Shown here one piece after another: positions 20,692 to 34,535 of a DNA stretch of 40,527 nt. The notes under the pieces were generated by a model, which saw only the letters and a list, made by a program, of their open reading frames with translations, made no database searches and was not told the origin of the DNA. The stretch covers positions 1 through 40,527 of the forward strand of contig JAJFHO010000253.1 in NCBI GenBank assembly GCA_021775575.1, in the 5' to 3' direction. How positions within the stretch are numbered: the first letter of the stretch is position 1; every line of letters begins with the position of its first letter. The stretch is from Hyphomicrobiales bacterium (GTDB lineage Bacteria > Pseudomonadota > Alphaproteobacteria > Rhizobiales > Methyloligellaceae). The position numbers were made by a program, and so were the translations under genes.

Positions 20692-22371
20692 ATGAGACGG
20701 TGCCACGTGCCGCGTTCCACTGAAAATTACCGGTTTCACCGAGCTGCCGCTGTGCCGCTCCTTATGGTCCTGGGGGTGGCCGGAGCGGGGAGCGCGCTGG
20801 CGCAGACGCCTGAACAGCGCGATGGCGCGCGACCGGGCGCATCCGCCGTCGGCTCGGGCGGGCAACGGCAAATTGAAGACCTTCGCAGGCAAATCGACCC
20901 TGATGCGCCGGCCGACCCTTTTGCCGCCGACCGCGCCGCCGACGATGCTAGGGAAAGCCGCCGGCGCAGCGAACGCGGCAGAGCGCTGGACGGGAGCCTG
21001 GACATCGAAATCGATCGGGCTGACGATAATTCAGCCGAGGGCATCTCCGCGCGCGACGATACCGATTCGCTCGACGATGCCGACGACAGGGCCCCCTCGC
21101 GCGACCGCGATGGTCAGGACCGCACTGCGACCGAGGACCAACGGGACGACCGCGTGCCTCAAACAGCGGACCCGCTTCTGGCGTCGGACAGCGATGACGA
21201 TAGAGCCGCCACCGGCCGCGACATATCCGAGACCAGCCCCTACGACGCGACGGGAATCCGTGTTGGCAGCTTTCTGCTGTTCCCCGAACTCAGCGTCGAG
21301 ACGGTATTCACCGACAATGTGCTGCAATCATCGACCAGCGCGCGCTCCGACCATGCCTACGCCTTGTCGCCAAGCCTTGTTCTTCGGTCCGACTGGAGTC
21401 GCCACTCGCTGGAAGCCACGCTCGCTGCGACGCGGAGCTATTACGATGATTTCCAGGAGCAGGATGATGAGACCTACGCCGGCGCGCTGCAGGGACGCTT
21501 CGATGTAACGCGCCGGACGGCAATTCAGCTCGATACGGCCTATCTGTTCGACAAGGAAGAAGTCTCCTCCGACGATACGCCGGCCGGGGCGGCAGAACGT
21601 ACACCATTCATCATACGCAGCGCGGAGGCCGAACTGCGGCATCGTTTCAACCGGCTGACCGCCAGCCTGCGCGGGCGGCTCAGCGATGAAGACTATGACG
21701 ACGTGGCGCTGATTGGCGGGGGAACCGCGAATAATGACGACCGCGATCTGACCGAGCGGGAAGTGACGGGACGTCTGTCTTACGAATTCCGGCCTGGAGT
21801 CGCCGGGTTCATCGAAGGCAGCAGGAATGAGCGCGACTTCGACACGCCGATCGACGATAACGGTATTCGCAGCGGATCGCAGGGCTACCGGGCCCTGACC
21901 GGCCTGACGCTGGAATTCACCGGCAAGCTCACCGGTGAAATTGCCGCCGGGTTCGCCCGGCAGACGCCCGAGGAAACGCGCCTTGAAGATGTGTCGGGGC
22001 TGATATTCACTGCCGGCCTGGAATGGCGGGCGACGCCGTTGACCACATTGCGGTTCGACGCCACATCCGAAATTGAGGAGACCACGCTGGCCAATTCTGC
22101 CGGAGCGCTGGTGCGGCGGGCCGAAATCTCCGTCGAACACGCTTTCCGCGAAAATATAATCGCCGGTATCGCGTTCGGCTATGAAATGGAAGACTTCTCG
22201 GGTTCGGGCCAGCAGGATCGGGACTATACGGCCGGCATTACCGGCGAATATTTGTTGACGCCGTCGGCCGCACTGACCGGCTCTTATGAATTCAACAAAT
22301 CCACAAGCAGCATACCGGGCAACGATTATGTCGAGAACGAAGTGCGGCTCGGCTTCCGGCTGCGGCGGTGA
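20692..22371 (+). CDS. Outer-membrane beta-barrel protein (BBP2-like) with Asp/Arg-rich N-terminal linker
   Basis: Signal peptide (AAAVPLLMVLGVAGAGSALAQ), amphipathic repeats such as GSFLLFPELSVETVFTDNVLQ and terminal YVENEVRLGFRLRR; start uncertain (20692 or GTG 20707). Confidence 0.85.
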   Translation: MRRCHVPRSTENYRFHRAAAVPLLMVLGVAGAGSALAQTPEQRDGARPGASAVGSGGQRQIEDLRRQIDPDAPADPFAADRAADDARESRRRSERGRALDGSLDIEIDRADDNSAEGISARDDTDSLDDADDRAPSRDRDGQDRTATEDQRDDRVPQTADPLLASDSDDDRAATGRDISETSPYDATGIRVGSFLLFPELSVETVFTDNVLQSSTSARSDHAYALSPSLVLRSDWSRHSLEATLAATRSYYDDFQEQDDETYAGALQGRFDVTRRTAIQLDTAYLFDKEEVSSDDTPAGAAERTPFIIRSAEAELRHRFNRLTASLRGRLSDEDYDDVALIGGGTANNDDRDLTEREVTGRLSYEFRPGVAGFIEGSRNERDFDTPIDDNGIRSGSQGYRALTGLTLEFTGKLTGEIAAGFARQTPEETRLEDVSGLIFTAGLEWRATPLTTLRFDATSEIEETTLANSAGALVRRAEISVEHAFRENIIAGIAFGYEMEDFSGSGQQDRDYTAGITGEYLLTPSAALTGSYEFNKSTSSIPGNDYVENEVRLGFRLRR

Positions 22372-23417: not shown

Positions 23418-24410
23418 ATGACCGTTCTGGTTACCGGCGGCGCCGGATATATCGGCAGTCACATGGTCCTCGAATTGCTGGACAGCGGCGAGGAGGTTGT
23501 TGTCGTCGACAATTTGTCTACCGGCTTCCGCTGGGCGGTTGCCGATGCCGCGAAACTGATCGTCGGCGACGTTGCCGATCAGGAACTTGTCGGCGGCTTG
23601 ATTGCAGAACATGGCGTCGACGCCATCATTCATTTCGCCGGGTCGATCGTCGTTCCCGATTCGATCGCCGATCCGCTCGGTTACTATCTCAACAACACCG
23701 TCAAATCGCGCGCCCTCATCGAATGCGCGGTGAATTGCAGCGTGAAACATTTTATCTTTTCCTCGACCGCCGCCGTTTACGGCATGCCGGAAGAAAACCC
23801 GGTTTTCGAAGACGCTTCGCTGCGGCCGATCTCGCCCTACGGCACCTCGAAACTGATGACGGAGATCATGCTGGGTGACGCCGGTAAGGCGCATGATCTC
23901 GATTTTGTCGCGCTGCGCTATTTCAATGTCGCCGGCGCCGACCCCAAGGGCCGTTCCGGCCAGTCGACGCCGCGCGCCACTCATCTCATCAAGGTGGCCT
24001 CGCAGGCGGCGCTCGGCCAGAGGCCGCATCTGGAGGTGTTCGGGACGGACTATCCGACGCCCGACGGCACCTGCATCCGCGACTATATCCATGTTACCGA
24101 CCTGGTCCGCGCGCATATGGCGGCGCTTGCGCTGTTGCGTCGTGGCGGGGGCAGCCAGGTGCTGAACTGCGGCTATGGCCGTGGTGCTTCGGTGCTGGAG
24201 GTGATCGAGGCGGTCAAGAAGGCCTCCGGCGCCGATTTTCCGGTTCGAATTGCGGAACGCCGGCCTGGCGATCCGGCGGCGCTGGTGGCCGGCGCGGAGC
24301 GTATCCGCGAGGTGTTGGGCTGGATGCCGCGCTATGACGATCTGGATATGATCGTCGCCCAGGCGCTGGCGTGGGAGCGGAGGTTGAGCGCGCTGAAGGA
24401 AGCCTCCTGA
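23418..24410 (+). CDS. galE: UDP-glucose 4-epimerase
   Basis: TVLVTGGAGYIGSHMVLELLDSGEEVVVVDNLSTG; FSSTAAVYGMPEENPV; SPYGTSKLMTE. Confidence 0.96.
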   Translation: MTVLVTGGAGYIGSHMVLELLDSGEEVVVVDNLSTGFRWAVADAAKLIVGDVADQELVGGLIAEHGVDAIIHFAGSIVVPDSIADPLGYYLNNTVKSRALIECAVNCSVKHFIFSSTAAVYGMPEENPVFEDASLRPISPYGTSKLMTEIMLGDAGKAHDLDFVALRYFNVAGADPKGRSGQSTPRATHLIKVASQAALGQRPHLEVFGTDYPTPDGTCIRDYIHVTDLVRAHMAALALLRRGGGSQVLNCGYGRGASVLEVIEAVKKASGADFPVRIAERRPGDPAALVAGAERIREVLGWMPRYDDLDMIVAQALAWERRLSALKEAS

Positions 24411-24545
24411 CGCCAGCGGCGATTGCAGACCAGTCATCGACTTGCCTACTTTTCACCAAGCTTCGATCCGGCTGCGCATTGACGCTTTCTCTGGCTCTGT
24501 TATTGCTCACAAGCAGTGACAATGTTGCGGGGAGGTGCGGCAGGG

Positions 24546-25874
24546 ATGCGGGGTCGCAAGATAATCGCTCGGTGGCTTTTCTGTTTTGGCATGGCGGCTT
24601 ATGCGCTGGCCGCCGGCCTTCCACCGGCACCGGTAGTTGCCGCGACAAAGCAGGAGGTCGCGGCCTATCGAAAAGCCGTCGGCAAACGTTTTGCCGGGTG
24701 GGTTCGGCAATTACGGGCCGAGGCGCAGGCAAAGGGCATCCGCGCATCGACATTCGATGTCGCGATGAAAGGCGTGAAAGTCAATTGGTCGCTGCGTGAT
24801 CTTGCCCCGCCGGACCTCGGGCCCGGGCAGCCGGCCCGGCCCGCGGTTGAGAAGAAGAGCCGCCAGAAACAGCAGCCCGAATTTGACAGGCCCGCGAAAT
24901 ATTTCCCGCCCAACGGTTTGGCCTATGTAACCAAGCTCGGCCGACAGAAACGCTCGGCCTGGGGCAAAACCCTGGAGGCGATTGAGAAGAAATATGGCGT
25001 CGAGCCGCATGTCGTGCTCGCGATCTGGGGCCGCGAAACGGCCTATGGTCGCGCCAAGCTGCCCTATTATGCGATCGCGGCGCTGGCCACGCAGGCCTTT
25101 ATGGGGCGGCGCGCGGAAAAATTCCGCGAGGAACTTCTGCTTGCGCTGCAAATACTGGACGAAGGCCATATCACGCGCGCCGGCATGAAAAGCTCATGGG
25201 CCGGAGCGATGGGGCACACGCAGTTTCTGCCCAGCGATTTCCGCAAATATGCGGTCGATTTCAACGGTGACGGCAAGCTCGATATTTGGGGCACGATCCC
25301 CGACGCGCTCGCCTCCACAGCCAATTTCCTGCGCTCAAACGGCTGGGAGGCCGGCAAGACCTGGGGCTATGAGGTCAGCCTGCCCAAAGGCTTCGATTGC
25401 ACGCTTGAAGGCGTCGCGGGCGAACGCAGCATCGGGGAGTGGGTCGACCTCGGCGTTACCCGGACGCGCGCGCGCAAATTCCGCCCTGACCGGCTGCCCG
25501 AGCGCGCCTATCTCGTCGCCCCGGCGGGGACGCTCGGGCCGGCCTTTCTGGTGCTGAAGAATTTTGCCGTGTTCCGGACCTACAACAAGGCCGACCTCTA
25601 TGCCCTTTATGTCGGTCACGTCGCCGACCGCATCGCTCTTGGCGGCGCCTTCGAGGGGGGGTGGTCACGGGTTGAGAGCTTCACCCGCGACGAGATGAAA
25701 CGCCTGCAGCAAGCGGTAACGGATGCCGGCTTCAATGTCGGCAAGATCGACGGTCTGATGGGGACGATCACCCGCGCGGCGATCGGCAAATGGCAGCGCA
25801 AGCTTGGACTGCCCGTCACCTGCTATCCGCCGCGCTCGTTGCTGAAGAGGGCGGCGGCGCGCGCGCCTGAGTGA
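24546..25874 (+). CDS. MltB-type (SLT_2) lytic murein transglycosylase with C-terminal PG-binding domain, copy 1
   Basis: VVLAIWGRETAYGRAKLPYYAIAALATQAF, SSWAGAMGHTQFLPSDFRKYAVDFNGDGKLDIWGTIPDALASTANFL; C-terminal DAGFNVGKIDGLMGTITRAAIGKWQRKLGL. Confidence 0.94.
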   Translation: MRGRKIIARWLFCFGMAAYALAAGLPPAPVVAATKQEVAAYRKAVGKRFAGWVRQLRAEAQAKGIRASTFDVAMKGVKVNWSLRDLAPPDLGPGQPARPAVEKKSRQKQQPEFDRPAKYFPPNGLAYVTKLGRQKRSAWGKTLEAIEKKYGVEPHVVLAIWGRETAYGRAKLPYYAIAALATQAFMGRRAEKFREELLLALQILDEGHITRAGMKSSWAGAMGHTQFLPSDFRKYAVDFNGDGKLDIWGTIPDALASTANFLRSNGWEAGKTWGYEVSLPKGFDCTLEGVAGERSIGEWVDLGVTRTRARKFRPDRLPERAYLVAPAGTLGPAFLVLKNFAVFRTYNKADLYALYVGHVADRIALGGAFEGGWSRVESFTRDEMKRLQQAVTDAGFNVGKIDGLMGTITRAAIGKWQRKLGLPVTCYPPRSLLKRAAARAPE

Positions 25875-25877
25875 GCC

Positions 25878-26285
25878 ATGGGCCAAGCGCTTCGTCATGC
25901 AGCCCTTGTTGTCTCCGCCATTATGATCTCGGGGTGCGGAACCTCGGGACAGGTGAATCGGGATGAGAGCAATGGCCAGTCCATATCCCTGTCGCCGGCC
26001 CAAATCCAGATCGTGAGGAACGGCGTGAAGTCGATGATCGCCAATCCGGAGTCGGCCGAGTTTACCAAGATGACGGCCCTGACATTCGCCGGAGAGGAGG
26101 GCGTGCAGATCTGCGGCCATGTCAAATACAAGGATGCAACCGGTGCCGATGCGCCGATGCAGCCTTTCTATCTGGAACTGAGAGAGGCCGGCGGCAAGCC
26201 GGTGGCGGAACGCGGTCAAGTGGGCTCGAGCCCGTCGGCGCTGTCGAAGGTCAATTTCATGTGCCGCCGGCATGGCGGAGGATGA
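25878..26285 (+). CDS. Small predicted lipoprotein
   Basis: N-terminus ALVVSAIMISGCGTSGQ with ISGC lipobox; family not recognised. Confidence 0.7.
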   Translation: MGQALRHAALVVSAIMISGCGTSGQVNRDESNGQSISLSPAQIQIVRNGVKSMIANPESAEFTKMTALTFAGEEGVQICGHVKYKDATGADAPMQPFYLELREAGGKPVAERGQVGSSPSALSKVNFMCRRHGGG

Positions 26286-26297
26286 AGCCGCGGCGGG

Positions 26298-26981
26298 TCA
26301 CGCGATGGTCGGCGCGGCCGGCGGTTTTTTCAGATGCTCGCTCTTGACCCACACCCTGCACCCCTCGGCTCCGGCCCTGGCCTTGAGCGTTCCACCCGCC
26401 GGCAGGCGCAGCCAGGACTGGTAGGTGAAGGCTTCTCCGCCTTCTGAAAAGGACCCCTCAAGGACGAGAAGTTCCATGCCGCCCGGCGTGTCGAGTTCGA
26501 CGTCGGCGTCCGGCGCCCAGCTTTCGACCCGCACGTCCTCGCCCGCATCCTTGTACAGCGGCGCAACCGATACGCCGGGGCGATCGGGCGCCGCTTCTTC
26601 GCTCAGCGTGTCTGTCTGCGTGTAGATTTGCGTGCGATCGTCGGGATCGAATTGCCAGAGCTTGACGAAAATTACGCAGCCCGCTTTGGAACCCGGCGTG
26701 TGTTTCGATGTCGGCGGGTTACGGACATAGGTCCCGGCCGCAAAGTCGCCATGCTCGTCTTGGAACACGCCTTCCAGCACAAGGAACTCTTCGCCGCCCG
26801 TATGTACATGGGATGAGAAGTGGCTGTTCGGGGCGTAGCGGACGATGGTCGTCGCGCGCGCGACTTCATCGCCAATCCGGTCCAGCATCCGCCGCTCGAC
26901 CCCCGCCATGGGCGACGCGACCCATTCCATCGATGCTCCATGCATCGACGCGCGCCTGGAAAAATCCGCATTTATTTCCAT
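26298..26981 (-). CDS. ChrR-like bicupin protein
   Basis: VRYAPNSHFSSHVHTGGEEFLVLEGVFQDEHGDFAAGTYVRNPPTSKHTP cupin plus second degenerate cupin GMELLVLEGSFSEGGEAFTYQSWLRLPAG; start MEINADF at 26981. Confidence 0.85.
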   Translation of the reverse strand: MEINADFSRRASMHGASMEWVASPMAGVERRMLDRIGDEVARATTIVRYAPNSHFSSHVHTGGEEFLVLEGVFQDEHGDFAAGTYVRNPPTSKHTPGSKAGCVIFVKLWQFDPDDRTQIYTQTDTLSEEAAPDRPGVSVAPLYKDAGEDVRVESWAPDADVELDTPGGMELLVLEGSFSEGGEAFTYQSWLRLPAGGTLKARAGAEGCRVWVKSEHLKKPPAAPTIA

Positions 26982-27123
26982 CAAGAAGCTCCCTAGGGAA
27001 TGGCGGCCCGGTGGCTGCGCCGGACGATGACGGCGGGCATCGCTTCGCTCACGATGACATGAAGGGTCCATTGTCCTAGATTGGGCCGCGAAAGGCAAAA
27101 TCGGCGAATAAGATGTGCGAGTA

Positions 27124-28023
27124 ATGTCGGAATCCGCCAAGAGAGTCTTTATTAGCTATGCACGTGAAGATCAGTCGATGGCCGCCGCGTTAGCGGGTGC
27201 TCTTGAACAGCATGGGATCTTGGCGTGGTGGGATTTCAAACTGATCGGTGGCGTCGATTTTCGTGCAGCGCTTCAGCGCGAGCTTGACCGGGCGGATGCC
27301 GTCTTGGTGCTTTGGTCGGAGGATTCCGTTTGCTCAGCTTTCGTCATAGACGAAGCTTATGAGGGCCGCCGGCAGAACAAACTGATCCCGATCTCCGTTG
27401 ACGGCATGGGACCGCCTTGGGGCTTTGGCGACATTCATACGATCGATTATTCCGGCAGGTCCATCGAGGATGTCAGGCCTGTTCTCGAAGCGATTTTATT
27501 GATCGGCGATGGCGAAAAGACGCTTCCGCCGGCGCGCGGTGTAAGCTATTCGGCTCCTGCCCCGGCAAGGGGACGCGCCGATGAGGACCTCGACTATGTC
27601 AAGTATCACAGCGAGGTTCTGGGATTGAGTTTCTCCTATCCGAGCGCGCTGCTCACGCTGGATACGACGCGATTCAAGGACGGGTATTTCGAGCTGCTCA
27701 ATCTGTCCAACGAGACCGAGGCGACACTCTGCTTGACGTCGGTACCAGGGCACAAGGATATCCGGAAAGGCCAGCGGATCGAGCAGGAGATGCTCGAGCG
27801 GCAGGGGAGCCGTTGCACCTATATCGGCCCGCAGGTGGAGAAAAACTGGAGCAACTGGTACGTGCTGAGCGGCTTCGGACCGGACGGAAAATTGTTTTAC
27901 CTGAGACGCTGGTACACGGACCGCGGCACGGTGTCCTTCGAGTTCTGCTTCGATGGTGCGCGGAAGCCGATCTACAACCAGGTCATTGAGGAAATGACGA
28001 TCAAGAGACTGTCATTCGATTAA
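27124..28023 (+). CDS. TIR-domain protein with unassigned C-terminal domain
   Basis: N-terminal TIR: KRVFISYAREDQSMAAALAGALEQHGILAWWDFKLIGGVDFRAALQRELDRADAVLVLWSEDSVCSAFVIDEAYEGRRQNKLIPI; C-terminal about 140 aa beta-rich segment from YHSEVLGLSFSYPSALL. Confidence 0.88.
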   Translation: MSESAKRVFISYAREDQSMAAALAGALEQHGILAWWDFKLIGGVDFRAALQRELDRADAVLVLWSEDSVCSAFVIDEAYEGRRQNKLIPISVDGMGPPWGFGDIHTIDYSGRSIEDVRPVLEAILLIGDGEKTLPPARGVSYSAPAPARGRADEDLDYVKYHSEVLGLSFSYPSALLTLDTTRFKDGYFELLNLSNETEATLCLTSVPGHKDIRKGQRIEQEMLERQGSRCTYIGPQVEKNWSNWYVLSGFGPDGKLFYLRRWYTDRGTVSFEFCFDGARKPIYNQVIEEMTIKRLSFD

Positions 28024-28142
28024 ACACGCTGGTGCGCGCTTCCTTCTTCTCTGGATACGGGCGGGTTGATCGTGGCCGGCTAGGACTGAAACTGCTCGAC
28101 TGATAGAATCGCCGGTATCGATTCGCGGGGGTAGTCTTGCCT

Positions 28143-29375
28143 ATGAAAAGACCATTGCGATCAATCGCACTTGCCTCCGGCATGTATGCGCTGGCGATAC
28201 TCGTTGGCGCAACAGCGCAGCCATCCCCGGTCTTCGCGCAGGACGCCGCCTTCGGGCGTTTCGTCGATGACTTCTGGTCCCGCGCGCGCAAGGCCGGAAT
28301 ATCGCGCAAGACCTACCGGGGTGCCTTTTCCGGTGTCGGGCCGGATCCGGAGGTTTTGAAGAAGGCGGATTACCAGCCCGAATTCACCAAGCCGGTCTGG
28401 GAATATCTGGCCTCCGCCGTATCGCAGAAGCGGATCGAAAATGGCCGCAAAATGCTACGCAAATACGGCGGCGTGCTAAAACGATTGGAGCAGCGTTACG
28501 GCGTCGACCGGCATATCGTCCTGGCGATCTGGGGCATGGAAACCGCCTATGGTTCCTTCATGGGCGACAAATATGTCATCCGCTCGCTGGCCACCCTGGC
28601 CTATAGGGGGCCGCGCCAGAAATTCGGGCGCTCCCAGCTCGTCGCCGCGCTGAAAATTCTCCAGAATGCCGACACGACGCCGAACCGAATGATTGGATCA
28701 TGGGCCGGCGCCATGGGCCACACGCAGTTCATTCCCACGACCTATGCGTCCTATGCGGTCGATTATGACGGCGACGGCAGGCGTGATATCTGGGATACGA
28801 TCCCCGACGCGCTGGCCTCGACCGCCAACTATCTCAAGGTTTCGAAATGGCGCCCGGGCGAGACCTGGGGTTACGAGGTCGAATTGCCCAGGGGCTTCAA
28901 CTTTGCGCTGGCGTCGCGGCGTACGGTCAAGACGCTTGCCGCGTGGAAGGCGCTCGGCGTCAAACGCGTCGGCGCCAAGTCCTTTCCCCGGCCGGACGAC
29001 CGGTCATCGATCATCCTGCCGGCAGGCGCGCATGGGCCGGCCTTCGCAGTTCTGAATAATTTCCGCTCGATCCTGCGCTACAATAACGCCACCTCCTATG
29101 CGCTGGCCGTCGGTCATCTTGCCGACCGTATCCGCGACGAGAAATTTCGTGGTTTCGTCAAGCCCTGGCCGACGGAGTACCGGCCGCTGTCGCGCAAGCA
29201 GCGCTTCGAATTGCAGACGTTGCTGGCATCGAGCGGATTCCTGAAAGGCGAAGCGGACGGCGTCATCGGTTCAGGCACACGCGCCGCGGTGCGCGCCTAC
29301 CAGCGCGCGCGGGGCTTGACGGTCGACGGATATCCCAGCGTAAAGCTGCTTGAGCATCTGAAAAGAGGCGGATGA
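28143..29375 (+). CDS. MltB-type (SLT_2) lytic murein transglycosylase with C-terminal PG-binding domain, copy 2
   Basis: IVLAIWGMETAYGSFMGDKYVIRSLATLAYRG, GSWAGAMGHTQFIPTTYASYAVDYDGDGRRDIWDTIPDALASTANYL; GFLKGEADGVIGSGTRAAVRAYQRARGL. Confidence 0.94.
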   Translation: MKRPLRSIALASGMYALAILVGATAQPSPVFAQDAAFGRFVDDFWSRARKAGISRKTYRGAFSGVGPDPEVLKKADYQPEFTKPVWEYLASAVSQKRIENGRKMLRKYGGVLKRLEQRYGVDRHIVLAIWGMETAYGSFMGDKYVIRSLATLAYRGPRQKFGRSQLVAALKILQNADTTPNRMIGSWAGAMGHTQFIPTTYASYAVDYDGDGRRDIWDTIPDALASTANYLKVSKWRPGETWGYEVELPRGFNFALASRRTVKTLAAWKALGVKRVGAKSFPRPDDRSSIILPAGAHGPAFAVLNNFRSILRYNNATSYALAVGHLADRIRDEKFRGFVKPWPTEYRPLSRKQRFELQTLLASSGFLKGEADGVIGSGTRAAVRAYQRARGLTVDGYPSVKLLEHLKRGG

Positions 29376-29436
29376 GGGGAGTGTTTCCACTCTCGAAGGC
29401 GCCTTTTGCCTCGCAGACGCCGCAATCCGATGCGAA

Positions 29437-29481
29437 TTTGTCACAACGGGACAAAATTTCACTCTTTGGAAAGCATTTTCC
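29437..29481. promoter_or_regulatory. Two operator-like dyads in the leader of the SGNH/MBOAT cluster
   Basis: TTTGTC-N7-GACAAA (29437-29455) and GGAAA-GCAT-TTTCC (29468-29481). Confidence 0.4.
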
Positions 29482-29581
29482 GGCACCTATTATGACTCTG
29501 TGGTTGGCAAACCCATACCATGCGATCAGAAGCGTACCAGGATGGGACGTGGAGGGTAGTAGTAGCGTCGGAGTAACAAGA

Positions 29582-30886
29582 ATGTTCAGTCTCGCGTATC
29601 TTAAGGCTCTTAACGCCCGATTTTTTTTCCGCCGGGTAGAATTTCTCACCATCGCAATCGTCTGTGCCGCAGTCATGGCGACCGGCGCGCAGGCGCAATC
29701 CTTCAGCCAGTTCGGCCAATATTCGCACAGCTATGTGACGCCCTTCCCGGAAGGCGACCGCTACAAGCTGTATGTGTTCGGGGATTCGCTGGGCGATGGC
29801 ATTTGGGCCGGGCTCTACCGGGCCTTCAAGCCCGACGGCAATATCGATGTCGTCAAGAAATCGAAAGTCTCCACCGGTTTCGTCCGGATCGACTATTTCG
29901 ATTGGAATACCCGTATCCGAAAGATCACCAAGGCTGAGAAATTCCATATCGCGGTGATTATGGTCGGCGCAAACGACATGCAGCCAATCCGCCTGAAGGG
30001 CAAGTGGCACAAGGTCGAAACCGAGGGCTGGCGCGAGATTTACAGTCAGCGCATCGATACTTTCATCAAGCGGCTGAAAGAAACGCATGCGGCTGTCTAC
30101 TGGGTTGGCTTGCCGGTCATGCGCAGCGAAAATCACAACGCCGCCATGCAGGTTATGAATGAAATTTTCCGCGAGAAGGCTTTCGTCAACGGTGTGAAAT
30201 TCATCGATACGTGGAATGGTTTCGCGGACCAGTTCGGCCGCTACAGCGCATTCGGGCCGGACCTGTCGGGGCAGGTGCGCAGGCTCCGGGCCAATGACGG
30301 TGTGCACTTCACCATGAAGGGCTACAGAAAATTGGCTCACTTCGTGGAGCGCGAAATCCGCCGCGATATGCGCAGCGCCAAATCCGAACGCGAGATTCCA
30401 TTGGCTGGCGACGAACCCGAGCAGGCCCGTGCGGTTCCGCGCGAGAGCGGCGAGGGCGCGAAAGATCCGCGGCCCCGCAAAGAGCTGCTGCCTGTTAGGC
30501 CCGCACGCGAGACGGCGGTTGAGAGCGAGCGCAAGAAAAGGCAAGCGAAGACCGAGCCGGCAACCAGTGCCGCCGCGGATACCGCGGCATTCAGCGAAAG
30601 CGAAAAGACCGTGGCCGGGGTCACTGTGCTGCGGCCCGAGATATCGGCCGCAGCCGCGATTGCGGCGACAACTTCCACCTATGCGCCGGAGGCCGAAACC
30701 ATCGCCAGCGACATTGGCGGCGGATTGACAGCGCTTGCGTCGGTGTCGCCCATCAACGATCCGACCCTTTCAGCACGGCAGCGTCTGCCGCTTACGCAGC
30801 GTCCTTATTACCGGGTGCTGATCAAGGGAGAGCAAGTGAAGCCGAAGACTGGCCGGGCCGACGATTTTTCCTGGCCGCGCAGCTGA
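29582..30886 (+). CDS. DUF459-type SGNH hydrolase, exported, with long low-complexity C-terminal extension
   Basis: Signal-anchor then YKLYVFGDSLGDGIWAGLYRAFKPD, VIMVGANDMQPI, ANDGVHFTMKGYRKLAHFVEREIRRDM (Ser, Asn, Asp/His blocks). Confidence 0.85.
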   Translation: MFSLAYLKALNARFFFRRVEFLTIAIVCAAVMATGAQAQSFSQFGQYSHSYVTPFPEGDRYKLYVFGDSLGDGIWAGLYRAFKPDGNIDVVKKSKVSTGFVRIDYFDWNTRIRKITKAEKFHIAVIMVGANDMQPIRLKGKWHKVETEGWREIYSQRIDTFIKRLKETHAAVYWVGLPVMRSENHNAAMQVMNEIFREKAFVNGVKFIDTWNGFADQFGRYSAFGPDLSGQVRRLRANDGVHFTMKGYRKLAHFVEREIRRDMRSAKSEREIPLAGDEPEQARAVPRESGEGAKDPRPRKELLPVRPARETAVESERKKRQAKTEPATSAAADTAAFSESEKTVAGVTVLRPEISAAAAIAATTSTYAPEAETIASDIGGGLTALASVSPINDPTLSARQRLPLTQRPYYRVLIKGEQVKPKTGRADDFSWPRS

Positions 30887-30948
30887 AAAGATTTTGAACG
30901 GCCGCGCCTGCCGCGGACCGAATTGTTTGATTGACTAAGAGGCGTCGT

Positions 30949-32490
30949 ATGTCTGGCCTGCGTATTCATGGCCGTAAATCCGCAACCCGTTGCTCCGGGC
31001 GCGCTTTGGCTGTCGCGTTTGCAAGCGTGACCCTGCTGACCGGATGCCTGCCCGAGGCATGGCAATCAGCGCCCCCGGATCGTGAATCGATCGTCGACTT
31101 CCAGAAGACTTCCGACCAGGTCCAGCGGTCGCGCAAGATGGCGCGGCTGCAACCGGCCGAGACGGAAATCACCGACGTCTATCCGCAGACCATCGAGCGC
31201 GATATTGCCGAGCCGGTGCGCCCGCCGGCGGCCGAGCCGGTCACCGCGCCGCCGGTCAAACCGGCCAATTTCTCATTGGCGCGCTTCCATGGCGCCTTGC
31301 GCGCTCTCGAAGCGGGGCAGCGCCAGAAGCCGGTCACGATCCTGCATCTTGGCGACAGCCATATAGCCTCCGACCGGCTGACCGGCGACATGCGGGCGAT
31401 GTTCCAGAAGCGCTTCGGCGACGCCGGGCGCGGCCTTATGATGCCTGGTTTCCCCTTCACTTATTACCGCGCCCGCGGCGTGCGCTTCGCTAAACGCGGC
31501 GCCTGGAAAGCCGCAAACAGCTTCAAGCGCGCCGGTGGACTTTATGGCGTAACCGGCGTTCGGCTGACGACACATCAAAAGGATGCGCGGCTTTCGCTGA
31601 CGAGCGAGAACGGGCCGTTCGAATGGGCGGAGGTCGCCTTTCTCGCCGGTCCGAAGCAGGGTTCCGCGGTCGTCGCGGTGGATGGCAATGGCAAAGTCGT
31701 GAAGACAAGGGCGCCCAAGTCAGCCGTGCAGCGCGTGCGTATCGATCACAAGGGGACGAAGCTCACGATCCGCGCCACGGGAGGCGGGGCGGTCACGGTT
31801 CTTTCCTGGTCGGTCGGGCAGAACCGTCCCGGCGTCCGCTACGTCAATCTCGGCATTCCCGGCGCTACCGCCGATACGCCGAACCTGTGGAACGAGCAGT
31901 TTGTCAGGGACGATGTGGCCAGTCTCAATCCGGATCTGATCGTGCTGGGTTTCGGGACCAATGAAGGCTTTAACGACGGTCTCGATCTTGAAGCCTACCA
32001 ACGCCGTGTCACGGATTTGACCGGCCGGTTGCTGGATGCCGCTCCCGATGCGTCGCTTGCGATCATCGGACCCGCCGACGGGGCGCGGCTGCCGCGTTTC
32101 GCGCGCGGCAGGAAATCGGTGTGCCGCGTGCTCGACGCTGCCGCGCGGCGTGACTACCGGCGGCTGTTGCGGGCGGGCAGCGCCAAACTCGCCGGCTGGC
32201 ACGCGCCTCCGAAACTGGCCGGCGTGCGCGATACGTTGCGGCGTATCGCCACCGAAAAAACCGCGCATTTCTGGGATTGGTCGGATGCGATGGGAGGAGA
32301 ATGCGGCGTCCATAAATGGGTGCGGTCGAAGCCGCAGCTCGCGTCCTCCGATCACGTGCATATAACGCGTGCGGGGTCGCGCCGTTCAGCCCAGGCTTTC
32401 TTTGAATCGCTCATGGCCGGATATGAAGCAGGCGGCAAACTTGCCAGCCGTTCGGTCGCCGGCAGCCGGGGCGAGAGTGTGAGTAGGTAA
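30949..32490 (+). CDS. SGNH/GDSL-family hydrolase, predicted lipoprotein
   Basis: Lipobox ALAVAFASVTLLTGC; VTILHLGDSHIASDRLTGDMRAMFQKRFGDAGRG, VLGFGTNEGFNDG, SSDHVHITRAGSRRSAQAF. Confidence 0.85.
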   Translation: MSGLRIHGRKSATRCSGRALAVAFASVTLLTGCLPEAWQSAPPDRESIVDFQKTSDQVQRSRKMARLQPAETEITDVYPQTIERDIAEPVRPPAAEPVTAPPVKPANFSLARFHGALRALEAGQRQKPVTILHLGDSHIASDRLTGDMRAMFQKRFGDAGRGLMMPGFPFTYYRARGVRFAKRGAWKAANSFKRAGGLYGVTGVRLTTHQKDARLSLTSENGPFEWAEVAFLAGPKQGSAVVAVDGNGKVVKTRAPKSAVQRVRIDHKGTKLTIRATGGGAVTVLSWSVGQNRPGVRYVNLGIPGATADTPNLWNEQFVRDDVASLNPDLIVLGFGTNEGFNDGLDLEAYQRRVTDLTGRLLDAAPDASLAIIGPADGARLPRFARGRKSVCRVLDAAARRDYRRLLRAGSAKLAGWHAPPKLAGVRDTLRRIATEKTAHFWDWSDAMGGECGVHKWVRSKPQLASSDHVHITRAGSRRSAQAFFESLMAGYEAGGKLASRSVAGSRGESVSR

Positions 32491-32491
32491 G

Positions 32492-33976
32492 ATGTTGTTT
32501 CCAACCCTCGATTTCGCCCTGTTTTTCGTCGTCGTCTTTGCCGTTTCCTGGGAACTGAGGCACAGCCACGAATTCCGCAAAGTATTTCTGCTGGGCGCGA
32601 GTTACTTTTTTTATGGCTATTGGGATTGGCGCTTCACCCTGCTGCTCGCGGGCAGCTCGCTGATCAACTATGTCGCTGGCAGGCTTGTCGGGACCACCGA
32701 CGACGAGAAGCAGCGAAAGCTGCTGGTCGGCATCGCCGTTGCGTTGAATCTCACTATTCTCGGCTTCTTCAAATATTACGGCTTTTTCCTGGATTCCCTG
32801 GCTGATCTTCTGGCGCAGGCCGGACTGGAACGCGACTTGCCCTTCCTGGAGATTATTCTGCCGGTCGGCATTTCCTTTTTCACCTTCCAGGGCATCTCCT
32901 ATGTGATGGATGTCTATCGGCGGGAGATCGAGGCGGTCCGCTCGCCACTCGATATTTTTCTCTATATCTCCTTCTTCCCGCAACTGGTCGCCGGCCCGAT
33001 CGTCCGGGCGGCGGATTTCCTGCCCCAGCTCAAGGCCGAGCCGCGGCTGAACCAGCAAATGATTTCGCTCGGTATCGTTCTCATCCTGCTCGGCCTGTTC
33101 AAAAAAATGGTGATCGCCAACTATCTGGCCACAGAACTCGTGGACATGGTGTTCTTTGATCCGGCCGCTTTCGGCGGACCTGATCTCATCCTCGCGGTCT
33201 ATGGATATGCCGCGCAAATCTATTGCGATTTTTCAGGCTACAGCGACATTGCGATCGGTATCGCTGCGCTGATGGGCTACCGGTTCAAGTGGAATTTCAA
33301 CCAACCCTACCGCGCCGCGTCACTCAAGGAATTCTGGCGGCGCTGGCATATTTCGCTCTCCGAATGGTTGCGCGACTATCTTTACAAACCGCTGGGCGGG
33401 AGCCGTGGCGGTAAGCTGAAGACGTACAGGAACCTGTTGCTGACAATGCTGCTCGGCGGTATTTGGCATGGGGCCGCCTGGACCTTTGTCATCTGGGGAA
33501 TTATTCACGGTTCGGCCCTTGCCATAGAGCGGATCGTCGCGGGCCTTGCGCGCGATCCGGCGAGGGAATTGGCGATGGCCCCGCAGGCGGCACGCGGCAC
33601 CTTGTCGGCGGCGGCGGTGCCCAAGCCGCGGCCCGCTTCAGCCCTGAGCTGGTTTGCCGGCGTCCTGATCACCTTCCATGTGGTCTGCCTCGCCTGGATT
33701 TTCTTCCGTGCGGAGAGCCTTGAAGTTGCACTCGCCTATCTCTCGGGGCTCGCCAACTGGAGTGAACCGACACAGTATATTCAGCCCTTCCTGGTGTTTC
33801 TCGTCGCCGGCTCGCTGATCGCGCATTTCCTTCCCAGGGGCTGGGTCACGGGCTCGGCCGAATTCCTCGGACGCTATGGAGTGCTCGTCCACGGGGCGGC
33901 GCTCGGGTTCGGGATCCTCCTGATCGAATCCATCGCGCCGGAAGGCGTGGCGCCCTTCATCTACTTCCAGTTCTGA
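32492..33976 (+). CDS. MBOAT-family O-acyltransferase (AlgI/PatA/DltB-like)
   Basis: LLGASYFFYGYWDWRFTLLLAGSSLINYVAGRL, FPQLVAGPIVRAADFLPQL, YCDFSGYSDIAIGIAALMGYRFKWNFNQPYRAASLKEFWRRWHISLSEWLRDYLYKPLGG, GGIWHGAAWTFVIWGIIHG catalytic His. Confidence 0.96.
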   Translation: MLFPTLDFALFFVVVFAVSWELRHSHEFRKVFLLGASYFFYGYWDWRFTLLLAGSSLINYVAGRLVGTTDDEKQRKLLVGIAVALNLTILGFFKYYGFFLDSLADLLAQAGLERDLPFLEIILPVGISFFTFQGISYVMDVYRREIEAVRSPLDIFLYISFFPQLVAGPIVRAADFLPQLKAEPRLNQQMISLGIVLILLGLFKKMVIANYLATELVDMVFFDPAAFGGPDLILAVYGYAAQIYCDFSGYSDIAIGIAALMGYRFKWNFNQPYRAASLKEFWRRWHISLSEWLRDYLYKPLGGSRGGKLKTYRNLLLTMLLGGIWHGAAWTFVIWGIIHGSALAIERIVAGLARDPARELAMAPQAARGTLSAAAVPKPRPASALSWFAGVLITFHVVCLAWIFFRAESLEVALAYLSGLANWSEPTQYIQPFLVFLVAGSLIAHFLPRGWVTGSAEFLGRYGVLVHGAALGFGILLIESIAPEGVAPFIYFQF

Positions 33977-33989
33977 TTGAGGAAGACCT

Positions 33990-34535
33990 ATGTCCTTTGT
34001 GCTCGAGTTCAGAAAGAAAATGCAGGCGGACGCCCGCAAGACGACTCGCAAGAAGACTGCCGTGAAAAAGTCGGAGGAGGGATTTGCGTTTCTTCCCGCC
34101 AAGCGCAATGCGGACACTGGCGGGAACCGGCGGCGGGTCCTGGCGGCACTATCACTCGCCGCGATTATCCTGTCGGTCTTCAATTCCGGCGCGATGGTCC
34201 AGTATGCCGGCGGGCTCGGTTACAACAATCTCACCATGCAGATCATTTCCGCGTCGGAGCGATGGCACCAGATCATGGAGGAGACACGGATGACAGCGCT
34301 GGTCGAGGAAATTCGCGGCGCGGTCACCAAGGCGCGGCAGTCGAGCTGGCAGGATCTGGCCTTCGGAAAATCGCCGGTCCCCGCTGATCCCTGGCCGGTG
34401 GTGCCGGCGAAGGCGCATCCACAGAGCGACACGCCTGAAAAGAGCGCACCGGCCGAAGTCACGCCGGACAGCGAACAGACCGCGCCCGAGGGTCCCGTGA
34501 TGCGCGCGGCGGTCGAACCGGCATCGAACCGATAG
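33990..34535 (+). CDS. Single-pass membrane accessory protein of the SGNH/MBOAT cluster
   Basis: Basic N-terminal tail, TM VLAALSLAAIILSVFNSGAMVQYAGGL, periplasmic Pro/Ala-rich tail; 13-nt gap from the MBOAT gene. Confidence 0.75.
   Translation: MSFVLEFRKKMQADARKTTRKKTAVKKSEEGFAFLPAKRNADTGGNRRRVLAALSLAAIILSVFNSGAMVQYAGGLGYNNLTMQIISASERWHQIMEETRMTALVEEIRGAVTKARQSSWQDLAFGKSPVPADPWPVVPAKAHPQSDTPEKSAPAEVTPDSEQTAPEGPVMRAAVEPASNR

Follow-up and report, generated by a model that had tools for sequence, protein, structure and literature searches.

The DNA analyzed here (the window) is a stretch of 40,527 nucleotides from a Hyphomicrobiales bacterium, namely positions 1 to 40,527 of contig JAJFHO010000253.1 in assembly GCA_021775575.1, and the locus under study is a run of plus-strand genes whose predicted products resemble the PatA/PatB/Ape1 machinery of peptidoglycan O-acetylation, together with a small membrane protein, hereafter the fourth protein. 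The genes are arranged as follows.

28137..29375, plus strand: MltB-type (MltB_2) lytic transglycosylase with SLT_2 and PG_binding_1 domains; likely start ATG 28143
29372..30886, plus strand: patB, putative DUF459 SGNH peptidoglycan O-acetyltransferase; likely start ATG 29582
30931..32490, plus strand: ape1, putative lipoprotein SGNH O-acetylpeptidoglycan esterase with the lipobox TLLTGC; TTG start, the in-frame ATG 30949 being likelier
32492..33976, plus strand: patA, predicted MBOAT acetyl-CoA-dependent transferase with His326 and the C-terminal FIYFQF (Tyr491)
33990..34535, plus strand: fourth protein, candidate separate PatB N-terminal membrane module, containing FNSGAMVQYAGGL

The patA gene begins 1 nt past the stop codon of ape1, and the fourth gene begins 13 nt past patA. 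While the open reading frame (ORF) of patB can open at 29372, ATG 29582, from which a signal-peptide-like stretch runs, is the likelier start. The initial annotation, which had described four tightly packed genes on the same strand, was correct as to their coordinates, the 1-nt and 13-nt gaps, the LLTGC lipobox and FNSGAMVQYAGGL; the extent it proposed, 29582-34535, contains these four genes but leaves out one that belongs with them, the lytic transglycosylase gene at 28137-29375.

The MBOAT protein of the window matched Pfam MBOAT (PF03062) with an E-value of 1e-34 and has relatives of the DltB fold in the PDB. Its predicted catalytic residue His326, the MBOAT family His, and its Tyr491 were invariant in 97 aligned homologues, and the FIYFQF sequence forms its very C-terminus, where essentially all homologues carry the motif FXYXXF. 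In Campylobacter PatA, auto-acetylation by acetyl-CoA occurs on the Tyr residue of the FXYXXF tail, which then passes the acetyl group to PatB (PMC12148441). On these sequence features the window protein is identified as PatA.

The DUF459 protein matched Pfam DUF459 (PF04311) with an E-value of 4e-71, the NCBIfam PatB model NF045704 with an E-value of 2e-23, and the solved PatB structures in the PDB (8tlb/7trr/7tjb), and its alignment retained the catalytic Ser, Asn, Asp and His residues. DUF459 has been described as the family of the PatB peptidoglycan O-acetyltransferases (PMC9487903). In block II the window protein carries Ser in place of the usual Gly, and most homologues have Ser, Ala or Asn at this position; replacement of this Gly, by Ser161 (Ng) or Asn165 (Cj), is reported to mark the transferases and goes with a noncanonical oxyanion hole (PMC12148441). 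The protein is hence designated a PatB-family transferase, the activity being that predicted from the sequence. Phylogenetic analysis placed it within a supported group whose members all lie beside PatA and Ape1, the deep Hyphomicrobiales branches being unresolved. We also considered that it might belong to a separate, lytic transglycosylase-linked DUF459 family devoid of PatA, but the tree grouped it with the PatA/Ape1-associated members. Its N-terminus gave no match to the profile of the fourth protein, and the same polypeptide contains no membrane-docking module.

Two further arrangements of DUF459 genes were observed. In many Hyphomicrobiales, among them nine genomes (loci L181-L188 and L191; genomes G207, G143, G284, G052, G147, G111, G083, G135 and G087), a lytic transglycosylase gene is paired with a DUF459 gene in the absence of PatA of this kind and of an adjacent Ape1; comparison with the window PatA yielded no MBOAT at all in eight of the nine and a distant partial match only in the other, which leaves the DUF459 enzyme without its acetyl donor. 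At the Hyphomicrobiales loci L118 (2544-7801), L119 (2745-7795), L085 and L109, two or three DUF459 genes lie near one patA, usually together with the small module gene, and Ape1 was not detected at these loci; several DUF459 transferases possibly share one PatA there.

The lipobox-bearing SGNH protein matched Pfam Lipase_GDSL_2 with an E-value of 6e-11. Its best PDB match (E-value of 8e-25) was to 4k3u/4k40/4k7j/4k9s, which we take to be Neisseria meningitidis Ape1, followed by a weaker match to 8gkd/8gld, presumably Ape1 from C. jejuni. Ser143, Gly311, Asn344, Asp474 and His477 are conserved, and the separation of about 170 residues between Ser143 and Gly311 fits Ape1, in which a module, a CBM in the case of NmApe1, is inserted between blocks I and II. 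This protein is accordingly classified as an Ape1-type O-acetylpeptidoglycan esterase of predicted activity. The protein encoded upstream of patB matched Pfam SLT_2 (E-value of 8e-115) and PG_binding_1 (E-value of 4e-14) and exceeded the cut-off of TIGR02283. In the neighborhood survey its gene was found directly 5' of patB in Hyphomicrobiales relatives as well, and it is probably a functional partner of the patB-ape1-patA operon. In Neisseria, Ape1 and the lytic transglycosylase LtgA stimulate one another (PMC7083599).

Because of the family matches, the catalytic residues and the FIYFQF tail of PatA, we regard the set as PatA/PatB/Ape1. A transferase of the AlgJ/X, DltD or WssI type was ruled out, since Pfam, NCBIfam and PDB all indicated PatB and Ape1, and neither SGNH protein gave a Pfam match to the AlgJ/AlgX or WssI families. 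The initial annotation had envisaged an envelope O-acylation system with one SGNH protein as the transferase and the other as the esterase, which is supported by the membership of the former in the PatB family and by the homology of the latter to Ape1. Its further statement that the combination matches no named system did not hold, as MBOAT, DUF459 and Ape1 together constitute PatA/PatB/Ape1, of which PatA/PatB was named in the annotation itself. The profile search that it proposed for all four proteins yielded Pfam matches (DUF459, Lipase_GDSL_2 and MBOAT) for the three enzymes, whereas the fourth protein matched nothing in Pfam, NCBIfam or PDB.

To survey gene neighborhoods, about 85,000 species genomes were searched at the protein level with the window MBOAT, and the best 80 loci, mostly from Alphaproteobacteria, were used; some derive from metagenome bins with doubtful labels, such as L116, which is labeled "Anaerolineae" although its PatB and that of the alphaproteobacterial L115 are almost the same. 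The gene order patB-ape1-patA-small gene recurred in Hyphomicrobiales, Parvibaculaceae and Caulobacteraceae; since it is found in dozens of alphaproteobacterial loci, the four-gene arrangement is not due to chance.

A total of 81 distinct patA loci were compiled, of which two had no room downstream, leaving 79 informative loci. Of these, 77 carry a small gene 3' of patA, 73 being called automatically and four (L055, L073, L110 and L127) by inspection; in L127 it lies about 1 kb away, and in L073 it shares one frame with patA in low-quality sequence. The two exceptions, L125 (Armatimonadota) and L135 (Spirochaetota), have a one-piece PatB directly after patA. When 41 genomes related to that of the window were compared, patA of this kind (at least 58% identity) and the fourth protein were present in the identical 14, and in G038 the fourth gene stands on the strand opposite to one of two patA copies. 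The frame in L073 (6001-7971) comprises PatA and the module in 656 codons on a low-quality contig with Ns, and represents either a fusion of PatA with the module or an error in the sequencing.

The fourth protein consists of a cytoplasmic helix, one transmembrane (TM) segment (residues ~43-64), two periplasmic amphipathic helices (80-99 and 101-117) and a disordered tail, which from about residue 128 is variable and predicted with low confidence, and which could be a point of contact with PatB. A profile of the small proteins encoded 3' of patA also matched the proteins of L125 (E-value of 5e-6) and L135 (E-value of 6e-5), whereas the next match outside its own family had an E-value of 0.4. 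In both cases the matched region was the N-terminus, preceding the SGNH domain. Among further fused PatBs, that of L202 matched the module profile, and that of L209 did so weakly. Profile-profile comparison (hhalign) of the module with the fused PatB N-termini gave an E-value of 7.5e-8, and a stricter set-up gave 3.3e-8 with a score of 41.4. With the TM and post-TM columns shuffled independently of each other, the highest score among 100 was 15.1, and with the post-TM columns alone shuffled it was 18.8; the E-value of the shuffled controls was never better than 0.003. Since the score fell in both shuffles, including that of the post-TM columns only, the TM segment and the part following it both contribute to the match. 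Neither the TM windows of PatA nor the split PatBs at their N-termini matched the module profile (E-value of 0.02 or worse), and surveys of Gammaproteobacteria and Armatimonadota for further fused PatBs returned almost only unrelated SGNH proteins.

The AlphaFold2 (AF2) models agreed with this homology. The fourth protein of the window was predicted to form helices at residues 43-64, 66-75, 80-99 and 101-117 (mean predicted local distance difference test score, pLDDT, of 76), and the fused PatB of L198 was predicted to form helices at 6-23, 25-33, 39-58 and 61-74, beyond which come a disordered linker and then the SGNH domain (mean pLDDT of 81). The sequence alignment pairs F64 of the module with F23 of L198, and the corresponding offset of 41 superposes the helices of the two models to within about 2 residues, leaving aside where the first helix begins. 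The N-terminus of Campylobacter PatB has similarly been modeled as a long TM helix and two membrane amphipathic helices that touch helices 1 and 17 of PatA (PMC12148441). The fourth protein is therefore probably the N-terminal membrane module that has become detached from PatB. The initial annotation was right that a short TM protein of this sort is absent from the described systems, and it is the only new element of the locus, but a general accessory protein, as had been suggested, it probably is not.

Taken together, we interpret the locus, with a probability of roughly 0.7, as a peptidoglycan O-acetylation/de-O-acetylation operon with a split PatB, comprising a lytic transglycosylase, PatB, Ape1, PatA and the PatB membrane module. 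In the proposed mechanism, PatA would load an acetyl group from acetyl-CoA onto its own Tyr491 in the FIYFQF tail and hand it to the Ser residue of PatB in the periplasm, which would in turn place it on the C6 hydroxyl of N-acetylmuramic acid; the lipid-anchored Ape1 would strip the acetyl group, thereby letting the neighboring lytic transglycosylase cut the strand. A canonical PatB combines in one polypeptide a TM segment and two amphipathic helices, modeled as docking on PatA, with the SGNH domain, to which a flexible linker connects them. Here the docking module appears to be a separate protein, encoded after patA where other phyla have one-piece PatB genes, so that the PatB catalytic domain would be secreted alone, with the module most likely lying against PatA and recruiting or positioning PatB. 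Somewhat less firmly, but still on balance, we favor an alphaproteobacterial three-part transferase consisting of PatA, a free secreted PatB domain and a membrane subunit that originated as the N-terminal part of PatB and serves to recruit or control it, encoded in one operon with Ape1 and the lytic transglycosylase. The family assignments, the catalytic residues, the conserved order of the genes and the homology between the fourth protein and the N-termini of fused PatBs were obtained by computation; the peptidoglycan substrate, the enzymatic activities, PatA binding and PatB recruitment are what we infer.

Several observations weigh against this interpretation. The window PatB scored 83 bits against the 580-bit equivalog cut-off of NF045704, a tight model under whose cut-off divergent PatBs such as that of L141, encoded in a patA-patB-ape1 cluster, likewise fall. 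An acidic residue on helix 1 of PatA reported to be strictly conserved varies here. Few fused PatBs, three strongly and one weakly, match the module by sequence, and comparison with the Neisseria-type PatB N-termini gave E-values of 0.2 or worse at the same predicted topology; because this similarity is not significant, the link to the Neisseria-type proteins is topological only. Campylobacter PatB lacking its N-terminal 112 residues still works in vitro (PMC12148441), and the module may therefore matter only in the cell. Finally, Alphaproteobacteria are not in the published list of Gram-negative bacteria with O-acetylated peptidoglycan and the cluster (PMC6174289), so that acetylated peptidoglycan in these hosts is a prediction, and the part of the literature covered contained no paper on this cluster in Alphaproteobacteria.

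The most serious alternative is a plain PatA/PatB/Ape1 operon in which the fourth protein is an unrelated, co-conserved small membrane protein such as an assembly factor, chaperone or regulator. Single-TM proteins often look alike, no database family names this one, and it lacks significant similarity to the Neisseria-type PatB N-termini; however, its significant profile match to the fused PatB N-termini is lost on shuffling, even of the post-TM columns only, its predicted helix boundaries agree with those of a fused PatB, and the fourth protein and fused PatB are distributed in a complementary manner, all of which renders an unrelated protein unlikely. Still less probable, in our estimate, is that the set acetylates another envelope polymer, such as exopolysaccharide, lipopolysaccharide or capsule. 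Although many polymers are modified by MBOAT-SGNH pairs (PMC12148441) and the listed tested members include none from Alphaproteobacteria, the transferase belongs to the PatB family and not to the AlgJ/AlgX, DltD or WssI families, Ape1 and a murein lytic transglycosylase share the operon, and no polysaccharide synthase adjoins it. As for a DltX-like acyl shuttle, DltX is indeed a small single-TM protein encoded beside an MBOAT (PMC12148441), yet it carries the acyl-Tyr motif (PMC12148441), whereas the fourth protein ends in VEPASNR without a C-terminal FXYXXF and PatA itself has FIYFQF; this role was ruled out by the sequence and is given virtually no weight.

Compared with known systems, the split-PatB operon shares with PatA/PatB/Ape1 of Neisseria and Campylobacter the MBOAT with the FXYXXF tail, the DUF459 SGNH transferase, the Ape1 esterase and the clustering of the genes. 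It differs in its order (patB-ape1-patA, versus patA-patB-ape1 in the Neisseria-type loci), in a PatB whose membrane-docking N-terminus is missing and is apparently supplied by a separate gene after patA, in the lytic transglycosylase that joins the operon in Hyphomicrobiales, and in its alphaproteobacterial host. The one-piece PatBs of Spirochaetota and Armatimonadota (L198, L202 and L196) are likewise encoded directly after patA and begin with a module homologous to the fourth protein, but carry it on the same chain as the SGNH domain, and no Ape1 homologue was detected beside them. DltB/DltD/DltX of teichoic acid D-alanylation also unites an MBOAT, an SGNH protein and a small single-TM protein, differing in the location of the acyl-Tyr motif. 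With AlgI/AlgJ/AlgX and WssH/WssI the MBOAT-SGNH logic is common, while the SGNH families and the substrate differ.

The enzyme set itself is thus ordinary and well understood, and the one undescribed feature is probably the PatB membrane module as a gene of its own. If the three-part complex exists, its membrane subunit would constitute a family not described so far, and PatB would have been dissected by nature. The N-terminal region of PatB, to which no function has been assigned and without which the enzyme works in vitro (PMC12148441), may hold PatB on PatA in the cell, and its encoding by a separate gene would make this role addressable without touching the enzyme. With this operon, peptidoglycan O-acetylation, mostly viewed as a pathogen trait, would also extend to Alphaproteobacteria from the environment, and the presence of a lytic transglycosylase in it agrees with the notion that such autolysins are controlled by acetylation.

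Elsewhere in the window, a second MltB-type lytic transglycosylase is encoded upstream of the operon, within the 24516-25874 / 25878-28023 region, and in several relatives the two transglycosylase genes stand side by side. Lying between them in the window are a small ORF whose N-terminus is lipobox-like, a ChrR-like cupin gene on the minus strand and a gene for a TIR-domain protein (27115-28023; Pfam TIR_2). The last showed weak matches to the defense TIR models SAVED-TIR and ThsB and is possibly a defense gene, with neither recognized partners nor an assignment for its C-terminal half. Further upstream, a large putative beta-barrel porin 2 (BBP2_2; 20692-22371) is encoded near an NAD-dependent epimerase (23418-24410), possibly forming an exopolysaccharide-related locus.

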